Below are positions 28,361-33,997 of a DNA stretch of 33,997 nt, one piece after another. Both the position numbers and the translations under genes were made by a program. How positions within the stretch are numbered: position 1 is the stretch's first letter; each line of letters opens with the position of its first letter. Below the pieces are notes generated by a model. That model had not been told where the DNA came from. It was given only the letters and a program-made list of their open reading frames with translations, and did not search any database. The stretch is from Lachnospiraceae bacterium. Lineage in GTDB: Bacteria > Bacillota > Clostridia > Lachnospirales > Lachnospiraceae. Location: contig JAILKW010000286.1 of NCBI GenBank assembly GCA_024693455.1, positions 1 to 33,997 of the forward strand, read 5' to 3'.

Positions 28361-30136
28361 ATGAATACAAGAAGAACGATGAAAATAAATATAAATTTAA
28401 TATTACTGGCACTTTCCGTTTTGCTTATCACAGGATGTACGAAGACAAAAGGGCAGCAGGCTGCGGAAAATCTTTGGGTTGTGCTCCGGGAGGACAAAGG
28501 CTATATAGCAAAGGAAAATGTTTTGGAATGCAAAATGGGAAAAGAGGTTTCCTTTGAGGTTGAAACTGTTCCGGGAGTTACGGTAAAAGGCTGTGACTAT
28601 GATGGTGAGTATGAGATAGATGAAGATGAGTCTGCAGGGGACGGATATGTTCACAGATATTTTATTAAGCTAAAAGATATACAAAGGATCGAAACGATAT
28701 CCCTTTTAACCGAAAGGGAATCAAAAACTATTTGTTACGACAATGGTGAAAAAGCTGAAGTCCCTTTGTTTCACCGGGGGATAAACACTTTAAGGGCAGA
28801 TCAGTGCGATTATAACGGTGATGGGACTTTGCTTGGTTTTAAAACAGATAAAGGGAAGTTTGTAACATGCGGGAGCAGGATAGACAAAACAGATGGAGAT
28901 AAACTTAAAACCATATTTAAGAAATGGACAAAGGAAGATCTTTTTATTACAGAAAAAAGTGGGGACGGGTGTAAGATAACCGGAGTCAAAAAGTCTTTGT
29001 TTGACGATCTTATCATACCGGGTGAGATAGGGGGACGAAAGGTATATGCTTTGGAAAGCGAAGCCTTTTCAAATATAAAGGCAGATAAGATTGTACTTCC
29101 GACGGGATTGCTTAAGGTGTCGGACCGGGCATTTCAGGGTGCAAAAATTAATCTTCTTTATATTAATGACGACGTAAGGGATTTTTCGCCGAGGGCGTTT
29201 GAGGGAGCCCGGGTGGGCAGATTAAAAGTGATCGCAGCAACGGCTCCCGTATACAGCGGAAATTATTTTGACGGTTTTGCCGATAAGCTTGAAGCGCTTA
29301 AAGCTGTTTCGGATGAGAAAAAGATAGTACTTTTCTCCGGATCATCCGCAAGATTCGGATATGACAGCAGGGCGATAGAGGAGGCTTTTCCGGGATATAA
29401 GGTTATCAATATGGGAGTTTTTGCCTATACAAATGCACTTTATCAGCTCCGGCTTATAAGAGAGCAGATGATGGAGGGAGATATTCTTGTTTTATCGCCT
29501 GAGTTTGATGCTTCCCAGAGTCAGTTTTGTATCGCAAATAACCTTGAGTGGCATGTTTTTGCCATGACGGAAGGAAATTATTCTTTGCTAGATGATCTTG
29601 ATCTATCCGAATATGAAGGGGTATGGCAGGCATTTTCCACTTATCTTACGGAAAAAAGAAGTATGGAAAAACGGGATTATAACATGAGTGTTTTTGAATA
29701 TGATGAAGACGGAAAAGAGGCGGATTCTCCCGTGTATAACGGAGCGGGGGACTATGTTTTGTTCAGGCCGAATGCCTCCGATAATACTCCCATATATGAT
29801 CTTCCGGTTTTGTATGCAAAGGAAGGCTTTCCGGAAAATACATATATAAAGCCGTTTAATAAGATGTGCAGGGAGTTTTTGAACAGGGGAATAAGGGTGT
29901 ATTTTACCTATGCGCCGAGAAATAGGGCGGCTCTTTCAAAGGAGAGCACCAAAGAAAAGATAAATGAACTGGATAAATATTTGAGGGATGAGCTTGTGAT
30001 CCCGGTGATCTCCGATATAAATGACAGTCTGTTTGAAGGAAGGTATCTTTACGGTACGGACAATCATCTTTCAACGGAAGGAGTAAAAATAAGGACAAAG
30101 AAGCTGATAAAAGATCTGGGGAGGGAATTATCATAG
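28361..30136 (+). CDS. Lipoprotein with BspA-like LRR segment followed by SGNH-hydrolase-like domain
   Basis: Lipobox 'LLITGCTKT'; LRR_5-like 'DLIIPGEIGGRKVYALESEAFSNIKADKIVLPTGLLKVSDRAFQGAKINLLYINDDVRDFSPRAFEGA'; SGNH-like 'VLFSGSSARFGYDS' and 'YGTDNHLSTEGVKI'. Confidence 0.7.
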   Translation: MNTRRTMKININLILLALSVLLITGCTKTKGQQAAENLWVVLREDKGYIAKENVLECKMGKEVSFEVETVPGVTVKGCDYDGEYEIDEDESAGDGYVHRYFIKLKDIQRIETISLLTERESKTICYDNGEKAEVPLFHRGINTLRADQCDYNGDGTLLGFKTDKGKFVTCGSRIDKTDGDKLKTIFKKWTKEDLFITEKSGDGCKITGVKKSLFDDLIIPGEIGGRKVYALESEAFSNIKADKIVLPTGLLKVSDRAFQGAKINLLYINDDVRDFSPRAFEGARVGRLKVIAATAPVYSGNYFDGFADKLEALKAVSDEKKIVLFSGSSARFGYDSRAIEEAFPGYKVINMGVFAYTNALYQLRLIREQMMEGDILVLSPEFDASQSQFCIANNLEWHVFAMTEGNYSLLDDLDLSEYEGVWQAFSTYLTEKRSMEKRDYNMSVFEYDEDGKEADSPVYNGAGDYVLFRPNASDNTPIYDLPVLYAKEGFPENTYIKPFNKMCREFLNRGIRVYFTYAPRNRAALSKESTKEKINELDKYLRDELVIPVISDINDSLFEGRYLYGTDNHLSTEGVKIRTKKLIKDLGRELS

Positions 30137-30210: not shown

Positions 30211-31545
30211 TTGATCGCGGCTTCCGTTGTATTTTTTCTGCTTCCGGATCCGTATGAGGGCTCATATCTGTCGGAACTGGGAGAAAAGCTTGAGCTCATA
30301 AAGAACACCGAAGGAAAAAGGGTGATAACGGCAGGCGGAAGTGCTGTTGCTTTCGGAATTAACAGTGGGATGCTTGAAGCTGAGTTTGGGGCAGATATAA
30401 AAGTCCCGGAAAATCCAAACAGGATTAAAGATTACAAGGTAATAAATTTCGGACTTTACGGCAGTCTCGGTACAAAGCTGATGCTTGAACTTTCGGCTCC
30501 TTATTTGCACAGGGACGATATAGTGATAATAATTCCCGAACAACAGGAGGATGCCCTAAGGGGGTATTTCGACGGAAAATATTATTGGCAGGCTCTTGGA
30601 AAGAAAGGTTTTTCGTTTTTGTTTTCTCTTGAAACCGATGAAAGAAACGAAGCGCTGAATAAACTTCTGCCATATATTGCGGAAAAGTTTAAGGCAGTTG
30701 TGTGGGACGGAAAAAGTTCTGCCAAAAACAACGGCATATATATTAAGGATAACTTTAATAAATACGGTGATATGGAGGCTGAAAGAAATACCAATATAAT
30801 GCCGGGAGGTTATGACAGTGATACGTCAATAGTGTTTGATGAAGATATTTTGGAAAATGATTTCTTTAAATACGTGGTCCGGTTTATCAAAAACGGTGAA
30901 AAGAACGGGACGAAGGTATATTTTAGGTTATCTCCGATCAATAATTCCGCTGTAAGAGCGGATAAAGAGCAGATAAAATCATACGAAACAGCTCTTTTAA
31001 ATAAGCTGGGTACTCATCTTTTGGGTGGGACAAGCAGCTCGGTTATGGATAAATCGTATTTTTACGATAGCAATTACCATCTTACAAATGATGGCGCGGC
31101 ATATTACACCTATAACCTTATAAATGACTTAAAGGCAAGGCATAAAGATTATTCTCACACGGATTTTGATGGTGCCTACAATTCAAAAGAGGTATCAAAA
31201 GATACGGTTTCATACAATGGAAACGAAGAGGGCTTTATTTTTGAGGAGTATGATAACGGAATAAAACTGACCGGTATTACGGAAGAATTGAGAAACAGTG
31301 AAGAAATATTAATTCCTGAATTTATAAATGACAAAGAGGTGATATATATTTCTGACGGTATTTTCAGTGGCTGCAACAATCTGAAAAAGATAATAATTAC
31401 CGTGTCATCACCCGAAAATCTCAGGGTGGGACGGGGATTGCTTGATGGGTGCAGCGCTGATATATTTGTTCCCGAAGGCAGTTTATCATCTTATAAAATG
31501 AACTATTTCTGGTCAACGTACAGCAGCAGGATTTTTGTTGATTAA
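30211..31545 (+). CDS. Membrane-anchored protein with SGNH-hydrolase-like domain followed by BspA-like LRR segment (true start probably further upstream, about 30127-30133)
   Basis: 'VITAGGSAVAFGINSGML', 'INFGLYGSLGTKLMLELSAPYLHRDDIVIIIPE', 'FYDSNYHLTNDGAAYYT', then LRR-like 'LTGITEELRNSEEILIPEFINDKEVIYISDGIFSGCNNLKKIIITVS'. TTG at 30211 has no RBS and cuts into the TM helix. Confidence 0.7.
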   Translation: MIAASVVFFLLPDPYEGSYLSELGEKLELIKNTEGKRVITAGGSAVAFGINSGMLEAEFGADIKVPENPNRIKDYKVINFGLYGSLGTKLMLELSAPYLHRDDIVIIIPEQQEDALRGYFDGKYYWQALGKKGFSFLFSLETDERNEALNKLLPYIAEKFKAVVWDGKSSAKNNGIYIKDNFNKYGDMEAERNTNIMPGGYDSDTSIVFDEDILENDFFKYVVRFIKNGEKNGTKVYFRLSPINNSAVRADKEQIKSYETALLNKLGTHLLGGTSSSVMDKSYFYDSNYHLTNDGAAYYTYNLINDLKARHKDYSHTDFDGAYNSKEVSKDTVSYNGNEEGFIFEEYDNGIKLTGITEELRNSEEILIPEFINDKEVIYISDGIFSGCNNLKKIIITVSSPENLRVGRGLLDGCSADIFVPEGSLSSYKMNYFWSTYSSRIFVD

Positions 31546-31606
31546 CTGTATGTGTTTGGTATAAAATTAGGGTGCTGTTTGTAAGTTAAACAAAGTGGAG
31601 GAAATT

Positions 31607-32236
31607 ATGGAAGAGATGATTTATAAAAGAAATGAGCTTTTGGCTCAGAAGGTGATGAAGGGGCTTGAAAGCAGGAATATGACTGCCTACTATGCTGCAT
31701 CAAAGGAAGAAGCTAAAAAACTTGCACTTTCTTTGATCCCCGAAGGCAGCAAGGTTACCAACGGAGGTGTCAGAAGTGCCGAACAGATCGGACTTTTGGA
31801 TGCTGTAAAAGAGGGAAATTACGAATATATAGACAGACATGAGGCTGAGGATAAAGAGGCTGCTACACTTATGGCATACAGCTGTGACTTTTATATTTCA
31901 AGTGCCAATGCCATTACGGAGGACGGTGTCCTTGTTAATATAGATGGCAATGCCAATCGTGTTTCGGCTATTTCCTACGGCCCTAAAAAGGTGCTCTTCA
32001 TTATAGGAATGAACAAGGTTGCGGATGATGTTGACGGTGCGATGAAAAGAGCCAGAAATCTGGCAGCTCCCGCAAACGCTCAAAGGTTCGGACTTAATAC
32101 ACCCTGTGCCAAAACAGGAGCCTGTGCAAACTGCAAATCTCCGGATACCATCTGCTGTCAGTTCCTTATCACAAGATATTCAAGGCAGAAGGACCGTATC
32201 CATGTTATCCTTGTAAACGAGGATCTGGGATTTTAA
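31607..32236 (+). CDS. LUD-domain (LutC/YkgG-like, DUF162) protein
   Basis: 'GSKVTNGGVRSAEQIGLLDAV', 'ISSANAITEDGVLVNIDGNANRVSAISYGPKKVLFIIGMNKV', C-terminal cysteine cluster 'PCAKTGACANCKSPDTICC'. ATG at 31607 has RBS GTGGAGG; the ORF-track start at 31595 lies within the RBS region. Confidence 0.9.
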   Translation: MEEMIYKRNELLAQKVMKGLESRNMTAYYAASKEEAKKLALSLIPEGSKVTNGGVRSAEQIGLLDAVKEGNYEYIDRHEAEDKEAATLMAYSCDFYISSANAITEDGVLVNIDGNANRVSAISYGPKKVLFIIGMNKVADDVDGAMKRARNLAAPANAQRFGLNTPCAKTGACANCKSPDTICCQFLITRYSRQKDRIHVILVNEDLGF

Positions 32237-32379: not shown

Positions 32380-33906
32380 TTAGCACATAAAATCAGCCAT
32401 GTCCTTAAGGAGATGCTTGCCTGCATAGAAGGGAGCAGTATCGAGCTTAGCCTGATTTCCCGCAACATCATTTATCGATCTCATTATCATGTCTTTATCT
32501 ATACGTTCAAAATGATAAAGTCTCATGAAGAGTTCTTTAAGATCTTCGGCATCCGAGATCTTTATTACATCAAATATCAGGTCTGCCAGAGAGCCTGCAG
32601 CATTCAGATAACCCGGGATGAAATATCCAACGGCCGGTCCGTGCGGAATATTACCTTCAAGTGTAAGGTGATATGAAAGCGCGTGAGGAAGCCCCGTTCC
32701 GTCTATTGCTATAGCCATTCCCGCAAGAGTGGACATGGTAAGCAGATTGTTTAATGTATCATCGTTGGGTGTGTATTTTGACAAGAGGGCTTCTTTGACA
32801 TATCTGAATTTGTGGAAACCTTCTATTGCTATGGCACGACTAAGCTCCGTTGCTTTTGAATTAATATAGCTTTCAACAAGATGTGAAAAAGCATCTATTG
32901 CTGTATTCCTGATTATCTGCATATCGGTTGCCCGCAGATATTTTATATTGGAAAAGCCGTACTCAGGCATGATCTTGTAAGGAATGGAGCCTTTAAGACC
33001 GAGTGATCGTCTTGTAAGAACGGAAACTGCCGTGGCTTCCGAGCCTGTACCGCAGGTTGTCGGAACACAGACTACCGGAAGAGCATCGCTGGGATTGCCG
33101 TTCTCATAGAGGTAGTCGATACCGCGGCCCCTGTTCTTAAGCATCAGTGCAATGGCTTTGGCAGCGTCCATGGGAGACCCGCCTCCTATCCCTATAACAA
33201 AATCGGCATCGGCATTTACGCCGGCATCACGTCCCTTCATTATGGTCTCTACAGAAGGATTTTCCTCGACTTCGTTAAAAACGGTGTAGGTAATACCATG
33301 TTCATCGAGAGCTTTTATTACGTCATCCAGGGAGCCGTTTCGTTTTGCCGAATTTCTTCCCGTGACGATAAGAGCCCGTTTGCCGCAAGAGGCTATCTTG
33401 TCACTGTGCTTTGATATGCAGTGCTTATCCTGATAAAGCTCCTGCTTATCATGACTGCTTATAAGATTTCCCTTATCATCATATGTAAGAGTCAGGTTAA
33501 AAAATTGATTTGAACTTTCAAGGATAGACAAAAAGATCTTGTCTCCCTCCCAAAGGTTTAGAGTTTCGATATCGGATTTAGGTATCCATTTTATCTCGCC
33601 TTCATCGCATTCAAGGCGGGGTGTGCCGTCAAAATTGTCGGAAACATAGATAAACATGTATTCCTCGTCTGAAGGACTTACAAAATGTACGATTCCCCTG
33701 AAATTAAGGCTTAAAAGAGTAATGCCTGCCTCTTCCTTTACTTCCCGCATCAGGCAGCGTGCTGCGGTTTCGCCTTCTTTCTTATGGCCTCCCAGGCCCA
33801 GCCATTTACCGGCATTGATATCATTTTCCTTTTTGTTCTTATGGATCATAAGGTAACGACCGTCATCTTCTATATAGCATAAAGTCGTTATAACCGGTGT
33901 GTTCAT
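32380..33906 (-). CDS. Fusion protein: N-terminal Nudix hydrolase (MutT-like) plus C-terminal iron-containing alcohol dehydrogenase
   Basis: Nudix box 'GGHKKEGETAARCLMREVKEEAGI' (GX5EX7REVXEEXGI); Fe-ADH 'VIGIGGGSPMDAAKAIA', 'VPTTCGTGSEATAVSVL', metal-ligand motifs 'DAFSHLVESY' and 'GLPHALSYHL...IPHGPAVG'. ATG at 33906 has RBS AGGGGG; the ORF-track start at 33966 is likely too far upstream. Confidence 0.92.
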   Translation of the reverse strand: MNTPVITTLCYIEDDGRYLMIHKNKKENDINAGKWLGLGGHKKEGETAARCLMREVKEEAGITLLSLNFRGIVHFVSPSDEEYMFIYVSDNFDGTPRLECDEGEIKWIPKSDIETLNLWEGDKIFLSILESSNQFFNLTLTYDDKGNLISSHDKQELYQDKHCISKHSDKIASCGKRALIVTGRNSAKRNGSLDDVIKALDEHGITYTVFNEVEENPSVETIMKGRDAGVNADADFVIGIGGGSPMDAAKAIALMLKNRGRGIDYLYENGNPSDALPVVCVPTTCGTGSEATAVSVLTRRSLGLKGSIPYKIMPEYGFSNIKYLRATDMQIIRNTAIDAFSHLVESYINSKATELSRAIAIEGFHKFRYVKEALLSKYTPNDDTLNNLLTMSTLAGMAIAIDGTGLPHALSYHLTLEGNIPHGPAVGYFIPGYLNAAGSLADLIFDVIKISDAEDLKELFMRLYHFERIDKDMIMRSINDVAGNQAKLDTAPFYAGKHLLKDMADFMC

Positions 33907-33912
33907 GTATGA

Positions 33913-33997
33913 TTTCCCCCTAAAAGTATGTTTATGATAGTTCCATTTATCGTAACACTTTATCATGAAAAAATCAAAATATACTTTTAGGGGGAAA
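33913..33997. repeat. Perfect 17-bp inverted repeat upstream of the Nudix-ADH gene, truncated by the window end
   Basis: TTTCCCCCTAAAAGTAT (33913-33929) and ATACTTTTAGGGGGAAA (33981-33997), 51-nt spacer; the left arm contains the Nudix-ADH RBS on the minus strand. Confidence 0.85.

Follow-up and report, generated by a model that had tools for sequence, protein, structure and literature searches.

Can a single polypeptide in which a Nudix hydrolase is followed by an iron-containing alcohol dehydrogenase (Fe-ADH) be a genuine product of the genome, and what would the two catalytic units be doing together? The question is raised by a gene at positions 32380-33906 of the window, by which is meant the whole 33,997-nucleotide stretch of Lachnospiraceae DNA analysed here. 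An earlier note, made from the letters of the sequence, had described a single in-frame reading frame joining two complete-looking catalytic units, and the present analysis bears this out. The frame is open over 508 amino acids to its stop codon, and the Pfam matches of the product all exceed their cut-offs, namely NUDIX at residues 8-123 (55.2 bits against 21.1), Fe-ADH at residues 156-315 (156.3 bits against 31.3) and ADH_Fe_C at residues 334-437 (50.1 bits against 27). Every motif that had been quoted was recovered: the Nudix box (39-62), GGGSPMDAAKA (241-251) and the metal ligands D338, H342, H408 and H422 (Table 1). This segment is thus confirmed as one intact gene, with a Nudix of MTH1/MutT type first and a nearly complete Fe-ADH after it. 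The AlphaFold model of the fusion protein has a pLDDT of 83 and a pTM of 0.79, with few ADH sequences behind the model and a poor stretch at residues 285-320.

Table 1. Features of the Nudix-Fe-ADH fusion gene, with positions in the window.
Feature	Position	Strand	Basis
Nudix-Fe-ADH fusion gene	32380..33906	-	508 codons + stop; uninterrupted ORF; homologous fusions
AGGGGG, probable Shine-Dalgarno of the ATG at 33906	33916..33921	-	sequence
Nudix domain PF00293, residues 8-123	33538..33885	-	Pfam; MTH1/MutT-type by PDB searches
Nudix box GGHKKEGETAARCLMREVKEEAGI, residues 39-62	33721..33792	-	canonical GX5EX7REUXEEXGU
Linker, about residues 149-158	33433..33462	-	partly low-confidence in model; variable between species
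AGGAG in linker, codons Q155-E156	33439..33443	-	taken as chance
Fe-ADH unit, residues 156-508	32383..33441	-	Pfam Fe-ADH 156-315, ADH_Fe_C 334-437; nearest structures 9jx4, TM0920 (1o2d/1vhd)
Gly183, coenzyme-determining position	33358..33360	-	alignment; rule PMC5125639
GGGSPMDAAKA dinucleotide-binding motif, residues 241-251	33154..33186	-	sequence, alignment
Metal ligand D338	32893..32895	-	invariant in 5 aligned fusions
Metal ligand H342	32881..32883	-	invariant in 5 aligned fusions
Metal ligand H408	32683..32685	-	invariant in 5 aligned fusions
Metal ligand H422	32641..32643	-	invariant in 5 aligned fusions

The source assembly is fragmented (350 contigs, 81% complete) and the fusion gene sits at a contig end, circumstances that would suit an assembly or sequencing artefact in which two genes are wrongly joined. 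There is next to no chance of this, because full-length homologues of the fusion exist in independent genomes of six other species, by which the artefact was ruled out, and the two domains give the same grouping in separate trees. These six species belong to two further Lachnospiraceae genera and carry the fusion at 47-51% identity, the catalytic residues being intact in those that were aligned.

The architecture is nevertheless rare. It was present in 3 of 397 Lachnospiraceae genomes (the window's own and two others, full-length, in two other genera), and among 291 genomes across the class no fusion was seen besides that of the window. A scan of 84,980 species, with one genome per species, was queried with Nudix peptides only and may have missed other fusions; the top two among the matches listed were full-length fusions in Lachnospiraceae MAGs from ruminants (L031 and L032), and the other 78 loci listed had a good match in the Nudix part only. 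Since L031 and L032 look the same as genomes L126 and L118, they were counted once, which gives seven distinct species including that of the window. Within genera, the fusion was carried by all four species of g308, by two of the four in g305 and by one of the 13 in the window's genus, g1. No paper describing a Nudix-Fe-ADH architecture was found in the open-access literature searched, which does not prove its absence elsewhere; within the reach of these searches the combination of domains is new, and each of the two enzyme families is well known.

Separate maximum-likelihood trees were computed for the ADH part and the Nudix part with all seven fusions included. The fusions formed one group in both (support 82/92 in the ADH tree and 87/89 in the Nudix tree, with one group in 84% of the bootstrap trees of each), which favours a single origin of the fusion with moderate support, short of proof. 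In the ADH tree the fused domains fall within the solo ADHs of Lachnospiraceae; in the Nudix tree the window's domain lies on a long branch, and Nudix-Maf fusions adjoin the Fe-ADH fusions. Both domains are clearly constrained by purifying selection and the linker less so: dN/dS in close pairs was 0.03 and 0.09 for the Nudix (a third pair being saturated), 0.04-0.13 for the ADH and 0.10-0.25 for the linker, which reached 0.29 in a fourth, more distant pair, all of these values being rough because synonymous sites are near saturation.

With regard to the junction, the ADH had been thought to be short of its first few residues only, and comparison with solo enzymes agrees, about seven N-terminal residues (MxFYMPx) being gone. 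The linker that stands in their place differs in length and sequence among the fusions. The reading of its AGGAG as a relict Shine-Dalgarno sequence had to be abandoned. In the fusion gene sequence no in-frame ATG, GTG or TTG follows this AGGAG before residue 223, by which a relict Shine-Dalgarno with an internal start in the linker was ruled out, and AGGAG is found 54 times on both strands of the whole window, so the copy in the linker is best read as chance. Loss of the stop codon and intergenic sequence of a neighbouring gene pair is a possible route to the fusion. Of the 45 solo ADH loci compared, one has the two domains as adjacent genes: at L015:839-2814 (G062) a solo Nudix belonging to the family of the fused one lies about 150 bases downstream of a solo Fe-ADH from the branch of the fused ADH, both on one strand. 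The remaining loci had no such pair, and the order at L015, ADH then Nudix, is the reverse of that in the fusion, for which reasons adjacent pairs were rejected as precursors; a pair of this kind would be expected by chance at a few per cent on a rough estimate and is only suggestive.

The fused Nudix is a member of superfamily PF00293 by a score over the gathering cut-off and by its canonical box, in which G40, E46, R54, E55, E58 and E59 are invariant in 34 aligned relatives. In both profile and single-sequence searches of the PDB, MTH1/MutT structures ranked first, and ACT/NudF/ADPRase-type structures were absent among the matches listed. TIGR00052 had no match over its cut-off in any of the seven fusion genomes; six of them gave sub-threshold Nudix matches, the window's genome being the exception. 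Judged by these similarities, the domain is of MTH1/MutT type and an ACT-like nature is not supported, the ACT/NudF class being dropped on the profile searches. Like the solo Nudix proteins of Lachnospiraceae and the MTH1/MutT 8-oxo-dGTP diphosphatases, it has the canonical box together with the tryptophan and the second aspartate of the base pocket, which in MTH1 we take to comprise N33, W117, D119 and D120. In the PDB-search alignment W119 and D122 correspond to W117 and D120, whereas N33 and D119 are replaced by L36 and G121, so specificity for 8-oxo-dGTP is not assured. The C-terminal Fe-ADH sets the fusion further apart from these diphosphatases.

Identity of the fused domain to solo relatives is about 49-57%. 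Of 120 Lachnospiraceae genomes sampled, 85 have a single member of the family to which they belong. None of the seven fusion genomes has a member besides the fused copy, other Nudix matches scoring at most about 22 bits. Being the sole copy of a widespread family, the fused Nudix has probably kept the housekeeping function of that family.

This single-copy family often takes part in fusions, and among relatives proteins of the Nudix-Maf and Nudix-Nudix kinds are common. In other Lachnospiraceae its C-terminal partners are Maf (L039, L066, L114 and L115, the last two being genus mates of the window's genome), a second Nudix (L042, L043, L064, L065, L071, L074 and others) and TrmO (L077). These proteins resemble the present fusion in having the same N-terminal Nudix with a second enzyme at the C-terminus; their partners, however, are nucleotide or tRNA enzymes, whereas Fe-ADH is a dehydrogenase. 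Maf is described in PMC3899018 as a modified-nucleotide pyrophosphatase. A same-family Nudix in L056 carries a methyltransferase on its N-terminal side, and a Nudix of Fusobacterium gastrosuis (L040:5968-6753) has an extra C-terminal domain without a Pfam match at the threshold used, which by eye recalls the NIF3/YqfO insert domain.

The second unit of the fusion has both Pfam domains, the ligands D, H, H and H and the GGGS motif of type III Fe-ADHs. By sequence, 9jx4 is the nearest structure and TM0920 the second, and by fold of the model TM0920 comes first (1o2d, E 1.1e-20); a literature search found no paper on PDB entry 9jx4. In Fe-ADHs one position largely decides the choice of coenzyme, with Gly denoting the NADP type (PMC5125639). 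Since Gly183 aligns with a Gly in NADP-binding TM0920 where MDH2 of B. methanolicus has Asp, the fused ADH is predicted from this one position to be NADP(H)-type. Sequence and fold affinity together with the glycine place it among TM0920-like (PDD-like, cd08181) Fe-ADHs. The metal ligands, GGGS motif and coenzyme-position Gly of TM0920 (1o2d/1vhd) and 9jx4 are as in the fusion, which differs in that the N-terminal residues mentioned above are replaced by the Nudix linker. Between fused and solo ADHs identity is no more than 36-47%, and their substrates may therefore differ.

Neighbouring genes vary by genus, and none recurs in all fusion genomes. Rubrerythrin and desulfoferrodoxin genes are divergent from the fusion at L149:6302-7471 and L031:299-1314, where the intergenic segment is possibly a shared oxidative-stress promoter region. 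An HD_3/YfbR-like 5'-deoxynucleotidase lies directly upstream of the fusion in L147 (by eye the same gene in L127), and an adenosine deaminase-like gene lies downstream in L152 (by eye also in L148). The fit of these neighbours to a damage-control theme is only suggestive. In the window, a LUD-domain gene at 31595-32236 (PF02589, 167.5 bits) is convergent with the fusion, upstream of which the contig ends. The window also encodes neighbouring secreted or lipoprotein-like proteins at 28361-30136 and 30211-31545 that share GSSARFG/GGSAVAFG-type stretches, appear SGNH-like or DltD-like by eye and have a weak LRR_5 match only in Pfam.

It had earlier been held that no obvious textbook link exists between the two activities. 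Such a link is on record, as the Nudix protein ACT stimulates the Fe-ADH methanol dehydrogenase (MDH) of Bacillus methanolicus and Nudix hydrolases are reported to stimulate type III ADHs more widely; the explanation given in 2025 is that ADP-ribose, which competes for the cofactor site and inhibits at submicromolar levels, is hydrolysed, whereby Nudix proteins such as ACT relieve type III Fe-ADHs of inhibition (PMC12926040). The words 'fusion' and 'fused' are absent from the main text of that paper. ACT and the NAD-dependent MDH resemble the fusion in being one Nudix and one Fe-ADH with conserved catalytic residues and metal ligands. They are, however, separate proteins and not one chain; ACT is dimeric and of the NDP-sugar/ADP-ribose pyrophosphatase type, whereas the fused Nudix is MTH1/MutT-type; and the coenzyme position is Asp in MDH2 but an NADP-type Gly in the fused ADH. 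Precedents are accordingly known both for fusions of Nudix with other enzymes and for a functional Nudix/Fe-ADH pair. With the supposed lack of a link and the relict Shine-Dalgarno set aside, what stands of the earlier interpretation is the in-frame fusion, an ADH that is nearly complete, and a sanitising role of the Nudix domain, which is supported as plausible. NAD(H) or 6-OH-NAD(P)H had also been suggested as what the Nudix may act on; by sequence it is of MTH1/MutT type.

We tentatively prefer to see in the fusion protein a bifunctional house-cleaning enzyme that would combine damaged-nucleotide hydrolysis with NADPH-dependent aldehyde reduction, its activities, substrates and shared role being what we infer. 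The N-terminal MTH1/MutT-type Nudix would hydrolyse damaged nucleoside triphosphates as the cell's only copy of this sanitiser, and the C-terminal NADP(H)-type, TM0920-like Fe-ADH would reduce (or oxidise) small aldehydes or alcohols, probably clearing reactive carbonyls. The tether would have both damage-control activities made together in a fixed ratio, and substrate channelling would not be required. This reading is placed before the two considered below because of the MTH1/MutT rank of the Nudix, the NADP-type Gly183, the single-copy status and some of the neighbours; the Maf, Nudix and TrmO fusions and the purifying selection also speak for it. Against it speak the differing neighbours between genera (a LUD-domain gene in the window itself), the replacement of two MTH1 pocket residues, the Asn and the first Asp, the prediction of NADP use from a single position and the low identity of fused to solo ADHs.

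It is also possible, if less probable, that the fusion is neutral or merely co-expressing, two independent enzymes having been joined by chance and kept since both are useful and hard to separate. One event would be enough, as the fusions are one clade in both domain trees; the linker is variable, the finding of the same Nudix with various partners suggests that joining may be opportunistic, and the fusion loci have no common operon. Against this, the fusion is kept in three genera despite identities of 47-51%, its two active sites are intact and each domain is constrained, and all four species sampled in one genus retain it; neutral joining alone does not predict such retention, though it is compatible with it. 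Unlikely in comparison is an ACT effect in cis, whereby the Nudix would keep its own ADH uninhibited by destroying a cofactor breakdown product lodged in the cofactor site, namely ADP-ribose or, if the enzyme uses NADP, 2'-phospho-ADP-ribose. The relief of Fe-ADH MDHs by ACT and the activation across type III ADH/Nudix pairs (PMC12926040) speak for it, as do the correspondence by motif of the ACT-essential R92, E93 and E97 to the conserved R54, E55 and E59 of the fusion, the placing of a hydrolase beside the cofactor site that the fusion would bring about, and the same-family Nudix next to one solo ADH (L015). It is opposed by the MTH1/MutT type of the Nudix, ACT/NudF-type structures being absent among the matches listed; by Gly183, from which an NADP-type ADH is predicted, the enzymes on which ADP-ribose was shown to act being NAD-dependent; and by the sole copy of a widespread Nudix family, which argues for a wider job. 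In some ADP-ribose pyrophosphatases the residue at +16 after the Nudix box is Pro, and this residue is not conserved among the aligned fusions. More doubtful still is the idea that the fusion is an Fe-ADH that protects itself: an MTH1-type Nudix, taken into the same chain, would rid the dehydrogenase of damaged cofactor or of an inhibiting fragment of it (e.g. 2'-phospho-ADP-ribose), and the ACT-MDH principle would thereby have arisen a second time, independently, in cis and for NADP.

For three decades the effect of ACT on MDH was a puzzle to enzymologists, and only recently has it been reinterpreted as the clearance of ADP-ribose; a conserved natural Nudix-Fe-ADH fusion in some gut bacteria is a ready system for testing such coupling in cis and in vivo. 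If the two activities are uncoupled, a widespread nucleotide sanitiser of Lachnospiraceae would still be seen capturing other enzymes at its C-terminus, repeatedly.
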